41,458 bases of DNA from the NCBI GenBank assembly GCA_902826025.1, contig CADEDH010000022.1:43230-84687 (forward strand). The letters are read 5' to 3'. This document shows, one piece after another, positions 32,575 to 40,119 of the stretch (positions are counted from its first letter, which is position 1; every line of letters starts with the position of its first letter). The DNA comes from an uncultured Actinomycetes bacterium. Its GTDB lineage: Bacteria; Actinomycetota; Acidimicrobiia; Acidimicrobiales; SZUA-35. The translations under genes were made by a program, and so were the position numbers. The notes beneath the pieces were generated by a model. That model was not told the DNA's origin, made no database searches, and was given only the letters and a program-made list of their open reading frames with translations.

Positions 32575-33402
32575 ATGAACCGACTGAGACGATTGCTACG
32601 TAGCCGCGGTGTGCGCAGCGCCAGTCTGCTCGCAATTCTGCTGATCGTCCTATTCAGCGTCATAATTGCTTTCATTGGCCTCATCGCAAAAGATCACTTA
32701 GTCTGGCAGACGATCGGCTTCGCAGTAACTGGCGCATTGCTCCAAACGGCGTTTCTGGGACTTGTGTATGAAGTGTGGCTTCGAGACGAGGTCGAGAATT
32801 CGACACTACAGAAGCTCGATCTATCCCGTCGGGTCGTAGATCATGGGCTGGAGCGCATTTCGGGCCACGCTGATATCGACTGGACTTTGCTACTCGACGG
32901 CGTATCAACAATCTGTGTGGCCTCTAACAGGCCCGACCAGGCGATCGGGTTCTCCGCCAGCATCGTTATTCAACATGCGCGAAGTAACGGGCTCCGATCC
33001 GTACGGATCGCTGTTCCAGCATCGAACTGGAACGACTGCGAGCGATGGATATTGGACTTTGAGTCCACCTGGAGGCGTGCACGTCTATCATCCTCGACTC
33101 TCTACTTTGTGGAATTGGCCGCTCCTCTACCTTATGATCTTCTCGCCTTTGGCGATCGGGTAGCGATACTTCTTCCACCTGGACAGCCCGACCTAGCTGA
33201 GTCTGGGCCCAAGATGCTTCAATTCCGATCCACTCGGAAGGATGATGCTATTGGAACGTGGCTACACAGCCAAGTCCTCGAGATTGAGACTAAGAACTCA
33301 CGAAGGGTGTGTCTGCCCGAAAGAGTCAAGAATGATAGTCCGGCCTCACTCTCCGATACTGGTAGCGATACTCTCGACTCTGAAGCTGAGAGCTTGTCAT
33401 GA
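32575..33402 (+). CDS. Two-TM protein with C-terminal domain of possible PLD-like fold, unknown
   Basis: A 275-residue protein. Basic start (NRLRRLLRSRG), TM1 at about 16-37 (SLLAILLIVLFSVIIAFIGL) and TM2 at about 43-66 (TIGFAVTGALLQTAFLGLVY), then a soluble part facing the cytosol. The soluble domain has WTLLLDGVSTICVASN, LRSVRIAVPASNWND and a beta-rich end. 'W..LL....I.i.....' followed by '..vRi.vP' is the strand order seen in catalytically dead phospholipase-D-like domains of membrane effectors. No HKD motif is visible. The stop overlaps the next ATG by 4 bp (ATGA), so it is strictly coupled to the DUF262 gene. Candidate membrane effector of a defence pair. Confidence 0.55.
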   Translation: MNRLRRLLRSRGVRSASLLAILLIVLFSVIIAFIGLIAKDHLVWQTIGFAVTGALLQTAFLGLVYEVWLRDEVENSTLQKLDLSRRVVDHGLERISGHADIDWTLLLDGVSTICVASNRPDQAIGFSASIVIQHARSNGLRSVRIAVPASNWNDCERWILDFESTWRRARLSSSTLYFVELAAPLPYDLLAFGDRVAILLPPGQPDLAESGPKMLQFRSTRKDDAIGTWLHSQVLEIETKNSRRVCLPERVKNDSPASLSDTGSDTLDSEAESLS

Positions 33403-35036
33403 CGGCTACTTACGATGTCACCTCTCTGCGCCTGTCGGAAATAATCGACTGGGTTGAGGAAGGGCGGCTTGGCCTTCCCGACTTTCAACGCCGCTTCGAA
33501 TGGGGTACGGCGGACGTCAAGGCGCTCCTTTCTACCGTCCTGTGTGGGTTGCCCTCGGGAACGATTATCGTCGCTCGGGCAGATGAGATGGTTGTATCCC
33601 TTCGGTCGCTTGAAGGCGCAGCGCCACTCAACAGTCAGCCGGAATGGATCCTCCTCGATGGTCAGCAGAGGATTACTGCGCTGTACCATGCCGTTCACAA
33701 TCTCGGTCCATTTCGCTATGGGCTAGATATTTCGGCGCTTATGGACGGGCAAGATTTGCTCCAAGACAATGTCGTACTGGCAGGGCCGGCCCGACGTTGG
33801 GCCAACATGCTTGACGACTTCAAATTGAGCGGACGACTAGTGGCACCTATATCGGCGCTCTTGTCTGAACTTCACTTCTTCAGATGGGCTGAAGAAGAAG
33901 ACTTAGACGGCGACGTGTATTCTGACGTCGGTCAGATCTTTTCTCGATCGATCGCTGTCTTGTCTCAGTATCAAATTCCTGTCTTGCGTCTAGGTCGTGA
34001 GTTTGGGTTGCCAGCGCTGGCGCAGGTCTTCGAACGACTAAACAAATGGGGCCAAGCGCTAGACTCTTTTGACCTGCTCGTGGCCCGTGTTCAAGGCTCT
34101 GGATGGAACTTGCGTGAAGCATGGGCCCAGCTGGTTGATCAGCACACAGAGACCAGAGAGCTGATGGGCGGCAATGGGCTTCCAGCGATCGCCGCCTTGG
34201 CGCTTTTGCATCGCAACGACGTTCGACGTGGGTCCATTCTGGAGATGCCCGCCCCGCTAATAGCAGAACGGTGGGACTCGCTAGCAGTGGCCACCAAGAA
34301 GAGCACCGAGTTGCTCTACCGCCGATGCGGTGTAGCGAAGCCTGAGTACCTTCCGTATCAGAATATTCTCGTTGCAACTATAGCGACATTTCTGCAATCT
34401 GATGGTCAACTGGATGGTCGTGAGATGGAGCGGTACTTCTGGATGTCCAGCGCGGGGCGCCGCTACGATGCGGCATCAAATACTAAAGTTGTGGCCGACG
34501 TGACTGTCCTTGCTAGCGGTAGGCCGATCTTCAATGGCGCTGACTGGGTGCCGACCGTGGAAGACCTGGCGCTTTGTACTAGACGCAGCAGTTCCGCTCT
34601 TTGGGCGGCCATCATCTGTGCCATGCTTGCGCGTTCCCCCCATGACCTCGCGACGGGCAGTCAGATTGTTGATCAGGACGGATACTTCAGTTCCTTCGAA
34701 CTTGTTCCCATTTCCCTCGGCGGTGGCGGCGAGGAGTCGTCACGTGCAGCGACACGCCTTAGAGCTACCGGCCAAAGCTTGGTCCTGTCGAGATCACTGG
34801 CGCGGTGGAATCGGAGCGGATTCATTGCCTCTGTTCGACATGCTCACGAAGCACCGATGCTTCCGGGAGTAGGTGGTGCCACCATCGCCGATCGGCTTGC
34901 GGATCAGTTCTTCCCGCATCCTGAGTCCCTCTTGGATGGCACGATGTCTGCTCACGATATTTCGGTCTATCGTGCCGAGAGGATTCACGAGTTCCTATCA
35001 GATTGGGCTGTCATGGACAGTAAGCACGAGGAGTAG
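33399..35036 (+). CDS. DUF262 (GmrS/ParB-Srx-like) domain protein
   Basis: A 545-residue protein with the DUF262 signatures: LPDFQRRFEW at residues 26-35, LLDGQQRITAL at 85-95 (nucleotide-site DGQQR) and FERLNKWGQALDSFDLLVAR further on. DUF262 proteins include GmrS of the GmrSD restriction system and SspE of phosphorothioate defence, and DGQQR binds and hydrolyses nucleotide. The C-terminal 250 residues lack an HNH (DUF1524) nuclease, so this one cannot cut DNA by the GmrD route by itself. It is coupled to the two-TM protein and could sense a phage feature and trigger it. Lower GC than the backbone supports horizontal origin. Confidence 0.75.
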   Translation: MTATYDVTSLRLSEIIDWVEEGRLGLPDFQRRFEWGTADVKALLSTVLCGLPSGTIIVARADEMVVSLRSLEGAAPLNSQPEWILLDGQQRITALYHAVHNLGPFRYGLDISALMDGQDLLQDNVVLAGPARRWANMLDDFKLSGRLVAPISALLSELHFFRWAEEEDLDGDVYSDVGQIFSRSIAVLSQYQIPVLRLGREFGLPALAQVFERLNKWGQALDSFDLLVARVQGSGWNLREAWAQLVDQHTETRELMGGNGLPAIAALALLHRNDVRRGSILEMPAPLIAERWDSLAVATKKSTELLYRRCGVAKPEYLPYQNILVATIATFLQSDGQLDGREMERYFWMSSAGRRYDAASNTKVVADVTVLASGRPIFNGADWVPTVEDLALCTRRSSSALWAAIICAMLARSPHDLATGSQIVDQDGYFSSFELVPISLGGGGEESSRAATRLRATGQSLVLSRSLARWNRSGFIASVRHAHEAPMLPGVGGATIADRLADQFFPHPESLLDGTMSAHDISVYRAERIHEFLSDWAVMDSKHEE

Positions 35037-35846: not shown

Positions 35847-37229
35847 CTACGCTCTGAGCCCCGGTAGTTTCAGCCCGCCTGGGCTGTGGGCTTTGACGTC
35901 CTGGCCCACGGCCACGGGCGTGTGGCGAGAATCGGTTGCCCGCGAGCGGCGGACCTGAGCATCTTCCACAGCGCAGTCGACACGAGGTCCGCTCGCCCAT
36001 CGAAACAATGGCAACGCGTTCCCGCCCCCTGGTGGCTCGGCCGCTACCGGACGCCCCAGCCGGCGGCCGAGCACCTTCGCCAGGACCTCCGGAGCAGTAC
36101 GAGAGGCGAGCAGCCCTTTCAGCTCCGGCACGACCCCTGCCTTGTCGGCGGCTGAGTAGACCGAGCCCTCAGCGGCCACGTAGGGCACGAACTCGCCGTG
36201 CTGGCGTTCGGCCTCGGCCTTCTCGTCGACTTCATTTACGCCGGCCCGTTTCAGTAGCCCGTGTGACGTTGCGAACATGCGCCGGCCGCCGACGACGGAG
36301 GCGTATTCGGCCCACAGCGCCCGGCATCGAGCCCGGACCTCGACGGGGATCTTCGGATCGGGGTCGGCTGCGGTCGCGGCGATCTCCCACATCGACCAGG
36401 AATCGTAACGGCCGGTCTTGAGGGCGCCCATGGTCAGCTCCAGGCCGACCTTGGCGAGGTAGCGGCCCATGGCCGGGTCATCAGCCCGGATCAGCGTGAT
36501 CCCGTGCTCCTCGGAGACGTTTCGGCCGGCCTTTGCCATCTGGGTGGACCATTCCCGCCACAGCGCGTGTTCCATCTCGTCGACCTCCGAGGGTCCCCAG
36601 TCGCTGTCGGCGTCCAGGTCGAGCTTCGACCAGACCAGGACGTGGAGGTGGGGGTGGAACCCGTTGGCCAGGGACCAGGTGACCTCTACTTGTCGGCAGA
36701 ATCCTCCGCCTCCTGCGGTGAGCTTGCGGAACAGTCGTGACTGCCGCAGGGCGGTCCAGGCGTCCATCATGTCCTGGTAGCTGAGGGCCAGGCCGTCGCT
36801 GCGGGCGTGGGAAAACGTGGGGGTGACCATGTAGCAGTGGAACCCCAGGGCTTTCATCACGGCCGCCAGTAGCACGATCTGGCGGGCTCGGGCCGCTGCG
36901 ATCTTGATCGCACACCGCAGGCACAGGTTCCCGGCCGCACAGACGACGACGCCTCGGAGCTGGCCGGCGTCGAGTCCGTCGGGGACGGTGACGTAGCCCA
37001 TCTCCACCCGCTGGCCGTGGGGGAGCCCGCAGGTGCCGGCCCGGTGCCTCTTCGACCACTCGCCCGTCTCGGGGTTCTTGCGCGGCCCCAGGAGCTGCCG
37101 GTTCAACCGCTGGACCTGGTCTTCCCGCACCAGCCGGTCGTGCCGGCGCCCCTCAGCGTCTTCCGCCGCTGCTACGGCATCGAGCCAAGCGTCTCCGGTG
37201 CTCTGCTGGGCGGTGCTGGTGGCCGTCAC
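35847..37229 (-). CDS. Rolling-circle replication initiator (HUH endonuclease)
   Basis: A 460-residue Rep. The metal-binding HUH motif reads FHPHLHVLVW (H194-L-H196), and a Tyr in MGRYLAKVG (Y257) is in the place of the nicking Tyr. A Cys cluster C67, C97-x5-C103-x2-C106 can bind zinc. The layout matches Rep proteins of actinobacterial plasmids and integrative elements (RepSA-like). Such proteins nick one strand at a double-strand origin and drive rolling-circle replication. The start is GTG at 37229, overlapping the upstream membrane gene by 4 bp. The C-terminus is long and Gly/Arg-rich. An HUH relaxase is less likely, since no relaxase helices are present. Confidence 0.85.
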   Translation of the reverse strand: MTATSTAQQSTGDAWLDAVAAAEDAEGRRHDRLVREDQVQRLNRQLLGPRKNPETGEWSKRHRAGTCGLPHGQRVEMGYVTVPDGLDAGQLRGVVVCAAGNLCLRCAIKIAAARARQIVLLAAVMKALGFHCYMVTPTFSHARSDGLALSYQDMMDAWTALRQSRLFRKLTAGGGGFCRQVEVTWSLANGFHPHLHVLVWSKLDLDADSDWGPSEVDEMEHALWREWSTQMAKAGRNVSEEHGITLIRADDPAMGRYLAKVGLELTMGALKTGRYDSWSMWEIAATAADPDPKIPVEVRARCRALWAEYASVVGGRRMFATSHGLLKRAGVNEVDEKAEAERQHGEFVPYVAAEGSVYSAADKAGVVPELKGLLASRTAPEVLAKVLGRRLGRPVAAEPPGGGNALPLFRWASGPRVDCAVEDAQVRRSRATDSRHTPVAVGQDVKAHSPGGLKLPGLRA

Positions 37230-37720: not shown

Positions 37721-38061
37721 GTCTCCTCGATGGGACTGGGCCGGCGGTCAGCTCTGATGACCGGCCCGGCTGTGGGTGCGTGGGGTTAGGCGGTGGCGGT
37801 GTGGCTGTGGGGTGGTGCCGGCGCTCTGGGTCGGTTGGTTTCCCGCCGGTTCCGCTGCGTCAAGGGCACGGGACAAACTTCGCCACCCACTGCCGCTAGC
37901 TCGACGGTGCGCTGGCGGTGGTGCCGGGGCGGGTGGGGTGTCGGCGAACTTTCTCCCTCTTCGGCCCTTGACCCATCGGCCCCGGCGGTTGGTTCGGTCT
38001 TCCAGTCCGAAGAACGGAGTTCTTCGGCTCGATTCGAGCCCCGGACGGTGGAGTGTGAGCG
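37721..38061. other. 341-bp divergent gap between the rep operon and the SprT-like gene
   Basis: No gene is supported. This gap must hold the start sites of both outward operons. Abutting palindromes at 38007-38040 are its clearest feature (separate entry). TTGACC at 37968-37973 could be a -35 for the plus strand, but no convincing -10 is present. A G/T-rich run (37785-37860) separates it from the rep side. An origin or operator region is plausible. Confidence 0.5.
38007..38040. repeat. Two overlapping perfect palindromes upstream of the SprT-like gene
   Basis: CCGAAGAAC (38007-38015), GGA, GTTCTTCGG (38019-38027) is a perfect 9-bp hairpin. Sharing its last GG, GGCTCGA (38026-38032), T, TCGAGCC (38034-38040) is a second perfect palindrome. 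They end 21 bp before the ATG. Close pairs of hairpins are typical of rolling-circle origins and also of dimeric repressor sites. Confidence 0.7.
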
Positions 38062-38805
38062 ATGGGGACCAGCAGCAACGGCGGTGGCAGCGGGAGCGGG
38101 AAGGTGGTGAAGCCGACCGATGTCACCTACCGGGGTTTCCAGGCGGCCTATGACGTGTTCAACCGGCAACTGTTCGGCCGGCGCCTGCCGCCGTGCATGA
38201 TCACGCTCCGGACGTTCCGGAAGGCGAGGGGCTACTTCTCGCCCGATCGGTTCGTCCACCTCACCGACGTGACCACGACGCACGAGATCGCCTTGGATCC
38301 CCGGCAGTTCATGGACCGCACCGCAGTCGAGGTCCTGTCGACCCTGGCGCATGAGATGTGCCACCTCGAGCAGCGGGAGCACGGGACCCCCAGCCGGAAC
38401 GGATACCACAACCGGGAATGGGTGGACCTGATGGCCCGGATCGGGCTGGTCGCCTCCGACACCGGTCGGCCCGGGGGGAAGCAGACGGGGCAAGCGATGA
38501 CCCACTACATCGAGCCGGGCGGCCGGTTCGAGAAGGTCGCTCGGGGCCTGGTCGACGCGGGCCGGTTCACCCTCCGCTGGGCCGACATCGAAGGATTCAT
38601 CGTGGATGAGCCCACCGGTGGGGCGCAGGGTGCGAAGGCGGTGGTGCCAGCGCCGAAGCCACCGAGGTCGGGGCGGGCGGGGGTGAGGGCCAAGTATCTG
38701 TGCGCCACCTGCGGAGCGGCCGTGTGGGGCAAACCGGGCCTGGCCATCGGGTGTCTCGGCCCCATCGACACCGTGCACGAACCGGACGTGATGACCGAGA
38801 TCTGA
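38062..38805 (+). CDS. SprT-like zinc metalloprotein of a mobile element
   Basis: A 247-residue protein with GGAG 8 bases before the ATG. Residues 20-120 match the SprT-like fold: YDVFNRQLFGRRLPPCMITL, a HEIALDPR strand, then the metal-binding THLAHEMCH-type helix, here TLAHEMCHLEQREHG (HExxH), with a further His in YHNREW as third ligand. The C-terminal tail has a zinc-ribbon-like CATCG...GC pair. SprT-like proteins in phages, plasmids and ICEs may act as nicking, processing or anti-defence proteases. It lies divergent from the rolling-circle rep operon. Confidence 0.8.
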   Translation: MGTSSNGGGSGSGKVVKPTDVTYRGFQAAYDVFNRQLFGRRLPPCMITLRTFRKARGYFSPDRFVHLTDVTTTHEIALDPRQFMDRTAVEVLSTLAHEMCHLEQREHGTPSRNGYHNREWVDLMARIGLVASDTGRPGGKQTGQAMTHYIEPGGRFEKVARGLVDAGRFTLRWADIEGFIVDEPTGGAQGAKAVVPAPKPPRSGRAGVRAKYLCATCGAAVWGKPGLAIGCLGPIDTVHEPDVMTEI

Positions 38806-38811
38806 GTTGAG

Positions 38812-38855
38812 GTTGTAGTGCACATCACAGGCGGGGTTGTGGTGTGCACTACAAC
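38812..38855. promoter_or_regulatory. Two copies of a palindromic motif between convergent operons
   Basis: Copy 1 is GTTGTAGTGCACATCACAG (38812-38830) and copy 2 is GTTGTGGTGTGCACTACAAC (38836-38855), 24 bp apart. Copy 2 is nearly self-complementary (TTGTGGTG/CACTACAA, one mismatch). A third copy identical over 19 bp to copy 2 lies at 39878-39896. The site is between the SprT-like stop and the end of the minus-strand operon. It could be a repressor or transfer-protein binding site. Confidence 0.6.
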
Positions 38856-38876
38856 GGTCGGGGTGGGGGTGGGTGG

Positions 38877-39623
38877 TCATGGGCGGGGGAGGCCGACTTG
38901 CTGGTAGGCGGTGGACCACAGCCGCCACACCAGCCGGTCATGATCGAACAGGGTGGGGTTCTGGGGCGGGCCGGCCCACGCCTCCGGGTCGATCTCGGTG
39001 ACCATCTCGATGGGCGCGCTCAGACCGTCGATGGTCCGGGCCGCTTGGGTGACCGCAGCCGTGAACACCTGGGCATAAGCGGTGAAAGTCATGCGGTAGC
39101 GGGCCGTGAGATCGGCCTCGGCCGCTTCGATGGCCTGCCAGGCCGCCTCGGCCTCGTCGTCAGACACGACCTCGCCGGCTTCTTCCTCGTGGGCGATCCA
39201 GAGGGCATCGAACGCCTGGTCGAGCGGCACGACCGGGGGATCCGCAAACGGCCCGTCTTCGTCAACCAGTTGAGCGACGTTGAGCGGCACCCTCACCGGT
39301 TCGGTGCGATAGGCCATCAGGTACTTGTCGTCGTGACCGACGGTGCCGGCGATGAGCTGGTGGACAAGGTCGGCTTCCCACGACCCGGGCCGTCCGGCGG
39401 TGACCCGCCACGTTCCCCCGACGTTGGCGGCCACCGCAGCCAGGACCTCGGCCAGGAACCCAGCGAAATCCTCCAGCTCACCCACCGTCTCCCCGGGCGA
39501 CACGGGAGGACGGGTGAGGCGCACCGTGCGGGCTAACACGTCGATGGCCTGGCTCTGGAGTCGGTCTCGTTCGTCCAGCCACTCCGCTTCGGTGGGGGCC
39601 ACTTTGTCGGCGGGGGTGGTCAT
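38877..39623 (-). CDS. Hypothetical protein, last gene of the overlapping operon
   Basis: A 248-residue soluble, helical, acidic protein (many Glu/Asp and Trp). Start is the ATG at 39623; an upstream GTG at 39665 seems too early. Features: helical N-terminus (EAEWLDERDRLQSQAIDVLA), WRVTAGRPGSWEADLVHQL, HEEEAGEVVSDDEAEAAWQA, and the end FDHDRLVWRLWSTAYQQVG. It overlaps the previous stop by 4 bp (ATGA). No family recognised; possibly an accessory protein of conjugative transfer. Confidence 0.6.
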   Translation of the reverse strand: MTTPADKVAPTEAEWLDERDRLQSQAIDVLARTVRLTRPPVSPGETVGELEDFAGFLAEVLAAVAANVGGTWRVTAGRPGSWEADLVHQLIAGTVGHDDKYLMAYRTEPVRVPLNVAQLVDEDGPFADPPVVPLDQAFDALWIAHEEEAGEVVSDDEAEAAWQAIEAAEADLTARYRMTFTAYAQVFTAAVTQAARTIDGLSAPIEMVTEIDPEAWAGPPQNPTLFDHDRLVWRLWSTAYQQVGLPRP

Positions 39624-39838
39624 TCGGTCGCCTCCGGGTCCCAGTCGGTCATCATGTCGTCCCACCGGTCGGCCCAGCCCGCGGTAGCGGTGTCGAGGGA
39701 GTCGACCAGGGCCGGGTCAGCGGGGAACCCTCCGCGGGACATCCACAGCGAGTAGTCGGCCAGGCCGGTCACGGCGGTGTAGTCGTCGTCTTCGTCGAGC
39801 CCGGCTATGGCCAGGCGGAGTGCTTCGTCGGGGTCCAT
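39620..39838 (-). CDS. Small hypothetical acidic protein
   Basis: A 72-residue acidic protein (DPDEALRLAIAGLDEDDDYT, DPALVDSLDTATAGWADRW). Its ATG shares a base with the preceding stop (TGATG at 39836-39840), and its own stop overlaps the next ATG by 4 bp, so translation is coupled on both sides. Highly acidic small proteins in mobile elements include DNA mimics and anti-restriction factors, but nothing here proves that. Confidence 0.55.
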   Translation of the reverse strand: MDPDEALRLAIAGLDEDDDYTAVTGLADYSLWMSRGGFPADPALVDSLDTATAGWADRWDDMMTDWDPEATE

Positions 39839-40119
39839 CACGCCCCCCTCTCGTGGTTGATGGTCGGTCGGTTGGGGGTTGTGGTGTGCACTACAAAGGC
39901 GGGTTGTGTCGGGTCCCAGGTGTGGGGGTCTGCGGCTTCCACCTCGTCGAGGTAGGTGTGGGCGGCGCGGAGGGCTTGGACCTCGTCGAGGTAAGGGCCG
40001 GTAGTGGTGGCGTCGTCGGTGGAGGTCCACCACAGGCCGCTCGGGTCCTGCTCGACGGTCGCCCACGGTGTGGTGAACCCGCCGCCGGGGAACGGTTCGG
40101 GGCCGGTCGGGGTCACCAT
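39838..40119 (-). CDS. Hypothetical protein containing the palindromic motif
   Basis: A 93-residue protein (VTPTGPEPFPGGGFTTPWATV, then a helical YLDEVQALRAAHTYLDEVEA with a tandem YLDEV). The third copy of the palindromic 19-20-bp motif lies in its 3' part (39878-39896), encoding VVHTTT. The ATG at 40119 overlaps the preceding gene by 7 bp. No family recognised. Confidence 0.5.
   Translation of the reverse strand: MVTPTGPEPFPGGGFTTPWATVEQDPSGLWWTSTDDATTTGPYLDEVQALRAAHTYLDEVEAADPHTWDPTQPAFVVHTTTPNRPTINHERGA

Follow-up and report, generated by a model that had tools for sequence, protein, structure and literature searches.

Spartan proteins are known as sequence-nonspecific, and SPRTN has a C-terminal Zn-binding part. 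To our knowledge, no member of the Spartan family has been described to read DNA in a sequence-specific way, the recognition of a palindrome forms no part of SPRTN as known to us, and we know of no function for the SprT-like genes carried by plasmids. In the metalloprotease-repressor pairs ImmA/ImmR and IrrE/DdrO, the protease and the DNA-binding repressor are two proteins. The ArdK/CUP regulon belongs to IncN and IncW plasmids. The conserved inverted repeats (CIR) of phage phiC31 are bound by repressor c. An actinomycete integrative and conjugative element (AICE) is defined by an integrase, a Rep and an FtsK-like TraB. The ArdK operators are given as TTGACA direct repeats near the -35 box (PMC9723621). 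The ESAS of cluster K mycobacteriophages are described as paired 17-bp imperfect inverted repeats with a spacer of mostly 4-13 bp, and some members of this cluster encode SprT, e.g. Pixie gp78 (PMC3203893). Among the matches listed for literature on SprT in phages and plasmids, operators and inverted repeats, the titles and the opening lines of the abstracts described no operator of the kind reported here.

The locus presented here can be compared to each of these systems. Dispersed near-identical palindromes resembling the phiC31 CIR (16 copies of CTACTCACGTGAGTAG in phiC31 at three or fewer mismatches) were found in 9-17 copies in the viral records G429, G432, G434 and G442, but the CIR CTACTCACGTGAGTAG is a sequence other than our motif, and the phiC31 repressor c (PF25746) gave no SprT-like match. 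In plasmid R46 the SprT-like gene adjoins ardK, but the motif is a palindrome without TTGACA and R46 has a separate site of this kind 17 bp before the SprT-like start. As in ImmA/ImmR and IrrE/DdrO, a zincin protease is tied to the control of a mobile element or regulon; in contrast to these pairs, the neighborhoods yielded no common partner repressor, and it is the protease that covaries with the site. IrrE and PprI matched the model of the SprT-like protein P0001 only weakly (Z 4.7 and 4.6). P0001 has in its model the protease fold of SPRTN and Wss1 and, like SPRTN, a C-terminal Zn-binding part, whereas palindrome recognition is proposed for the mobile SprT-like proteins. The likeness to the cluster K ESAS is one of description only, namely paired imperfect inverted repeats in a phage cluster of which some members encode SprT.

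The motif is a predicted operator of the class that accompanies the SprT-like (phrog_6361, plasmid 'Mpr') genes of mobile elements, and it is fairly probable that the SprT-like protein itself is the sequence-specific DNA-binding regulator that binds the palindrome. If true, it would be the first Spartan-family protein known to us to read a specific DNA sequence, and a shared operator together with a residue-base code would give mobile SprT-like genes a function, that of a self-encoded regulator.

Motif copies and neighboring genes in the window

The window is the whole stretch of DNA that was analysed (41,458 nucleotides). When it was searched, GTTGTGGTGTGCACTACAA was found exactly at both 38836-38854 and 39878-39896, with a variant at 38812-38831, as the first-pass annotation had claimed. 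Three matches at three or fewer mismatches were obtained compared to 0.01 expected by chance, and none of 100 shuffles reached three. The motif of about 20 bp had also been called palindromic, and each unit was indeed an imperfect palindrome, TTGTRGTGYRCAYYACAA. The copies had been placed across the element, which is too wide, all three lying within 1.1 kb (Table 1).

Table 1. Coordinates of the motif copies and of the features around them in the window.
Feature	Coordinates	Strand	Remarks
Rolling-circle-type Rep	35847..37229	-	Rep_1 30.3 bits, below 33.2 cut-off
Non-coding block	37789..38041		Upstream of SprT-like gene; common to C46 (82%) and C21 (73%, 179 columns)
SprT-like metalloprotease P0001 (predicted), HEMCH motif, C-terminal Zn ribbon	38062..38805	+	Pfam PF10263, phrog_6361, AlphaFold2, SPRTN fold
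Variant palindrome GTTGTAGTGCACATCACAGG	38812..38831	+	Half-site TTGTAGTGC plus weaker half-site
Palindrome GTTGTAGTGCACACCACAAC (minus-strand reading)	38836..38855	-	Inverted relative to 38812; hairpin partner of 38812
P0002	38877..39623	-	No Pfam match; converges on SprT-like gene
72-aa gene (MDPDEALRL...)	39620..39838	-	No Pfam match; homologue on C46 also follows motif
P0003, 93-aa ORF	39838..40119	-	3' end holds 39878 site (encodes FVVHTTT)
Palindrome TTTGTAGTGCACACCACAAC (minus-strand reading)	39878..39897	-	Centre 49 bp before 72-aa gene start (39838)

The start of the 72-aa gene was read by hand; its stop is overlapped by the start of P0002, and the two genes probably form an operon. 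The claim that one copy lies inside a gene held for the 39878 site in the small ORF P0003, and the homologue of this ORF on contig C46 of the same genome also holds the motif. A GmrSD-type restriction gene (PF03235) lies beside the element at 33399-35036.

The 38812 and 38836 copies are mutually inverted and together form a 19-pair hairpin on the plus strand (-34.7 kcal/mol over a 71-nt stretch, z -6.4), and the minus-strand fold of the pair has 17 pairs with a z of -7.6. A hairpin of this strength that separates two stops (38805 for the SprT-like gene, 38877 for the convergent gene) could act as a bidirectional terminator, a role that would be compatible with operator use. We consider it very improbable, as no terminator-like site with a T run was detected at 38812/38836, the unit occurs singly at 39878 and on contig C21, and the hairpin follows from two inverted palindromes. 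A terminator-only reading of the pair was rejected in view of the single copies and the operator class.

Copies in the genome and in related genomes

In the source genome (6,874,096 bases), all copies at one or no mismatch were confined to three rep-bearing mobile elements. Outside the two window places, zero-mismatch sites were limited to C21 (85163) and C46 (792); the 38812 variant had one mismatch and C46:824 had two. The two copies of C46, 32 bp apart, and the one exact copy of C21 each lie on a contig stretch with the Rep gene of a related element. The other matches at two mismatches amounted to eight in the genome with strands counted apart, about equal to the total of seven for the reversed control. 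The window and C46 share blocks of 76-89% identity in the same order. Profile searches found Rep_1 and a tyrosine integrase on C46; C21 has an integrase, a Rep, a GntR and an FtsK-like match at 20.0 bits (Pfam cut-off 24). The window element has a weak Rep only and is incomplete, as the window ends at the contig end.

On C46 the homologue of the 72-aa gene is also preceded by the motif, with centres at about -72 and -40 from its start compared to -49 in the window (starts read by hand). The two C46 copies encode different peptides (VVVHTTT and LQCALQTT), indicating that the DNA and not the peptide is what is kept.

The motif had no match in 38 other genomes of the family, and two of 394 other genomes of the class had a single match each, of differing sequence. 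The absence from relatives that the first-pass annotation had set against its own reading was thus seen in part near home, and support for the site came from outside the taxon. P0001 was found in its own genome only among 396 of the phylum, and the one PF10263 match of that genome is that of the window, though C21 and C46 carry the site.

The non-coding block upstream of the SprT-like gene is 73-82% identical in three otherwise diverged elements (window 37789-38041; L007 1317-1569; L006 10531-10707), and its window copy contains a GAAGAACGGAGTTCTTC hairpin. It is a candidate origin or promoter region.

Recurrence of the motif in viral records

In viral contigs, 21 stretches matched the degenerate pattern exactly and 16 the reversed pattern, the latter from 16 different contigs. 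The raw number therefore says little, and it is the clustering that tells. Six of 15 viral records carried 7-17 copies each at two or fewer mismatches, and the reversed control gave none in all 15. A PF10263 match at E <= 0.001 was found in five of the six multi-copy records (two above and three below the Pfam cut-off) and in none of the nine other viral records or the 16 control records; G442 had nine copies and no PF10263 match. The window protein and proteins of G429, G432, G433 and G435 matched phrog_6361.

When the low-GC phages G433 and G435 were compared by BLASTP with the window at 34.8-41.5 kb, SprT-like was the only family in common, and no other protein common to the window element and these phages was found at 1e-3. 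In G433, rough gene calls place at least four of the nine listed copies 12-64 bp ahead of a gene, and the positions in G435 are less clear. The records G429, G432 and G434, which are actinophage-like, have three copies ahead of the SprT-like gene and a phiC31-repressor-like gene near it; the phiC31-repressor-like proteins could own the sites in these three records.

Many of the dispersed palindromes of G429, G432, G434 and G442 are paired 47-49 bp apart, and 11 of the 17 in G429 lie inside genes by rough gene calls. Pieces of G429 and G442 compared to named phages gave no match and a 49-bp match only. In L018 and L022 (G433 and G437), a longer palindrome of 38 bp is built around the motif as its core; a single central pair of it is mismatched, and it lies close to a contig end.

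No window-type motif was present at three or fewer mismatches near five viral relatives of P0001 (L086-L090), and the search was therefore shifted to the palindrome class.

Family and predicted structure of the SprT-like protein

P0001 matched Pfam PF10263 with 37.9 bits, above the cut-off of 25.6, and phrog_6361 with an E of 1.3e-20. Residues H97, E98 and H101 were invariant in 77 sequences and H116 was kept in at least 90% (HExxH plus a further His), so P0001 is a predicted SprT-like metalloprotease. Its AlphaFold2 model (pLDDT 87.9) matched SPRTN (6mdx) with a Z of 10.5 over 107 residues and an rmsd of 3.4 (Foldseek E 5.6e-4) and Wss1 (5xbn) with a Z of 7.9; structural neighbors other than SPRTN, selecase and Wss1 had a Z of 7.8 or less. 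A Zn ribbon, barely covered by the structural matches, follows the protease fold. In the model, residue 209 lies just before strand 210-213, residue 113 in the turn before H116, and residue 144 in the loop before strand 147-150. P0001 matched 2611 PLSDB plasmid records at E <= 1e-5, 1299 of them over at least 80% of the query, and 2187 of the records were typed conjugative.

A palindrome class before mobile SprT-like genes

In the first 11 annotated loci, a class palindrome was found before the gene or operon in all five plasmids inspected (R46, pRS11DPr5, pAC258-29, pSD21_54kb and pMBUI2) and in one of six phages (Nsp-JY18). The site survey then covered 168 loci (77 genome and 80 viral loci, i.e. 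157, plus the 11 previously seen) with 162 proteins in 109 clusters at 80% identity. Palindromes of any sequence peaked at -100..0 relative to the protein match (44, 2.82/kb) compared to 0-1.1/kb in the other bins, the highest of which were directly after the gene and near +1600 to +1800. The class frame drawn from these loci, TTGNANNGYRCNNTNCAA, is an 18-bp palindrome (TTG-A--G plus its inverse). Across the 109 clusters, 27 frame sites (5.0/kb) lay at -50..0 before mobile SprT-like genes compared to a background of 0.074/kb. A strict site was present at -150..+20 in 33 of the 109 clusters and missing in 76; when the previously seen loci were left out, it was present in 30 of 99. The half-sites include TTGTATTG, TTGGATTG, TTGTATCG, TTGTAATG and TTGTAGTG, in loci with titles naming Proteobacteria, Bacteroidetes and Spirochaetes and in viral contigs. 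In Attoomi, Samy and phiAsp2, each with a SprT-like protein, no good class site was present (one weak, none and one weak at three or fewer mismatches, respectively). Nsp-JY18 has seven loosely similar 16-mers, one of them before its SprT-like operon.

L188 is the best match to P0001, at 57% in the best segment. Its gene is directly preceded by TTGTAATGCACACTACAG, of which one half-site is close to a window half-site. The window copies at 38837 and 39879 fit the class frame with one frame mismatch and two mismatched pairs, deviations within the limits applied to all loci. They lie 784 bp and 1826 bp after the SprT-like gene start and not 0-150 bp before the gene.

These findings bear on the alternatives of a protein-binding or a transfer-initiation site, which the first-pass annotation had left side by side. 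A putative protein-binding site is well supported by its palindromic form, its copy number and its presence in coding and non-coding DNA, and further by the different reading frames on C46, the recurrence in phages and the class found before mobile SprT-like genes. Transfer initiation is not supported, as six viral contigs carry 7-17 copies each and the site is most often found within the 50 bp that lead up to a gene start. An origin of transfer or replication (clt, dso) would agree with the distance of the motif from the conserved non-coding block near rep in three elements, which is 56 bp on C21, 475 bp on C46 and 771 bp in the window. It is scarcely credible nonetheless, and was rejected for the dispersal in phages, the gene-start position in plasmids and the copies inside coding DNA.

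Alternatively, the site might be a place where the protease acts on a DNA-bound protein, by crosslink removal or by stripping of Rep or relaxase, and not an operator. The SprT-like protein shares its fold with the DNA-protein crosslink protease SPRTN, and Rep genes lie within a few kb of the site in three elements. The position before gene starts and the 7-17 phage copies fit regulation better, and we hold protease action at the site to be improbable.

Within 5 kb of the site (BLASTP, 1e-5), SprT-like genes were found in 44 of 44 site-bearing loci, followed by resolvase in seven and ParA in six. No other neighboring family occurred in more than seven of the 44, the remaining rows being frames that overlap the SprT-like gene, and this holds for what BLASTP detects at 1e-5, which may miss a short, fast-changing common regulator, many loci having less than 5 kb on both sides.

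Covariation of operator bases and protein residues

Binding of the site by the SprT-like protein would predict that residues and bases vary in concert. Among 62 loci, T at base 7 went with R209 in 33 of 35 and another base with K209 in 24 of 27 (two R and one unreadable). G at base 4 went with E144 in 11 of 14 and T with Gln or Asp in 41 of 42, and where base 4 was C on both sides, residue 144 was Arg (two of two). When Pagel tests were run on a tree built from protease domain residues 18-135, without residues 144 and 209, the LR was 36.3 for base 7/209 (p 2.5e-7) and 33.8 for base 4/144 (p 8.1e-7), compared to 5.4 and 6.0 for the crossed pairings (p 0.25 and 0.20, respectively). In a scan of 368 residue traits, base 7 ranked residue 209 above 208 and 207 (35.7, 24.1 and 21.9; median 3.5), and base 4 was led by 144E (32.8) and 113R (31.1; median 3.8); the residues had originally been chosen on 48 loci that mostly overlap the 62. 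Once hand-assigned rows were dropped, the strict subset (n 35 and 33) gave p values of 0.0017 and 0.0007, and 0.86 and 0.54 when crossed. One full and three bootstrapped FastTree trees concurred, with crossed p values of 0.089 to 0.73. The tree has few supported forks, and treekit found only two supported independent pairs. These were uninformative, the average number in which the residue moved alike being 1.5 for base 7 and 0.8 for base 4. Base 6 covaried with scattered residues, mostly in the protease domain, and this was read as phylogeny.

Ten further plasmids served as a held-out test; under a relaxed criterion, a site was present in eight and absent from L271 and L276. Where the site was present and the protein readable, the base-7 rule held in seven of seven, the base-4/144 rule in five of seven (failing in L273 and L275) and the base-4/113 rule in six of seven; held-out L277 is 95% identical to L140, a previously sampled locus outside the 62.

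The joint evolutionary change of protease and site suggests that the protease reads the site. The palindrome would probably be bound by a dimer of the protein, each subunit occupying one 9-bp half-site TTG-A--G-Y; base 7 would be read by the residues leading into the Zn ribbon (207-209) and base 4 by residues 113 and 144 beside the protease site. In the usual case, the bound protein would control its own promoter. In the window, the 39878 site would control the operon of the 72-aa gene and P0002, and the 38812/38836 pair the region between the two convergent genes. The site, its position, its recurrence and its covariation with the protein are observed; direct binding, the dimer, repression and the choice of responding promoters are inferred.

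The sites may instead belong to another regulator, the SprT-like gene being merely a conserved member of the regulon. An operator before a gene need not be bound by the product of that gene, and diverse regulators occur on or near these elements, namely GntR on C21, ArdK and KorA on R46, and the phiC31-repressor-like proteins of three actinophage records. This is unlikely, since no other family was found in more than seven of the 44 loci within 5 kb, the operator bases track two SprT-like residues and not the crossed ones, and ArdK reads TTGACA direct repeats (PMC9723621). Against binding by the SprT-like protein to its own site, no site precedes the SprT-like gene of the window, where the copies stand downstream of this gene and ahead of another operon. 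This arrangement, and the copies on C21 and C46 in a genome with one SprT-like match, suggest that one SprT-like protein controls sister elements in trans or that the site is shared with an unseen regulator. Direct binding is also opposed by the 76 clusters without a strict site, by G442 with its nine copies and no PF10263 match, by the SprT-like proteins of Attoomi, Samy and phiAsp2 that come without a class site, and by the sequence-nonspecific character known for Spartan proteins.

If binding by the SprT-like protein is taken as the preferred reading, a wider and more doubtful possibility is that mobile SprT-like proteases form a new class of sequence-specific regulators that bind their own palindromic operator and are switched off by DNA-triggered self-cleavage, such that the entry of ssDNA of the element or damage derepresses establishment genes. 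Such self-cleavage would amount to LexA logic in a zinc protease.

Individual loci of the class showed further features. R46 (L108, IncN) carries four class palindromes (20733, 20784, 22547 and 30004), of which two fall within the annotated stbA, one directly follows a gene and one precedes the SprT-like gene. In L279 (Vibrio harveyi pVH1), the match to SprT-like is split in two, the frame stops early, and three sites lie before it. In L106 (Methylomagnum plasmid, 1-2014), genes for a Multiubiquitin-domain protein and of the ThiF family lie upstream of the SprT-like gene.
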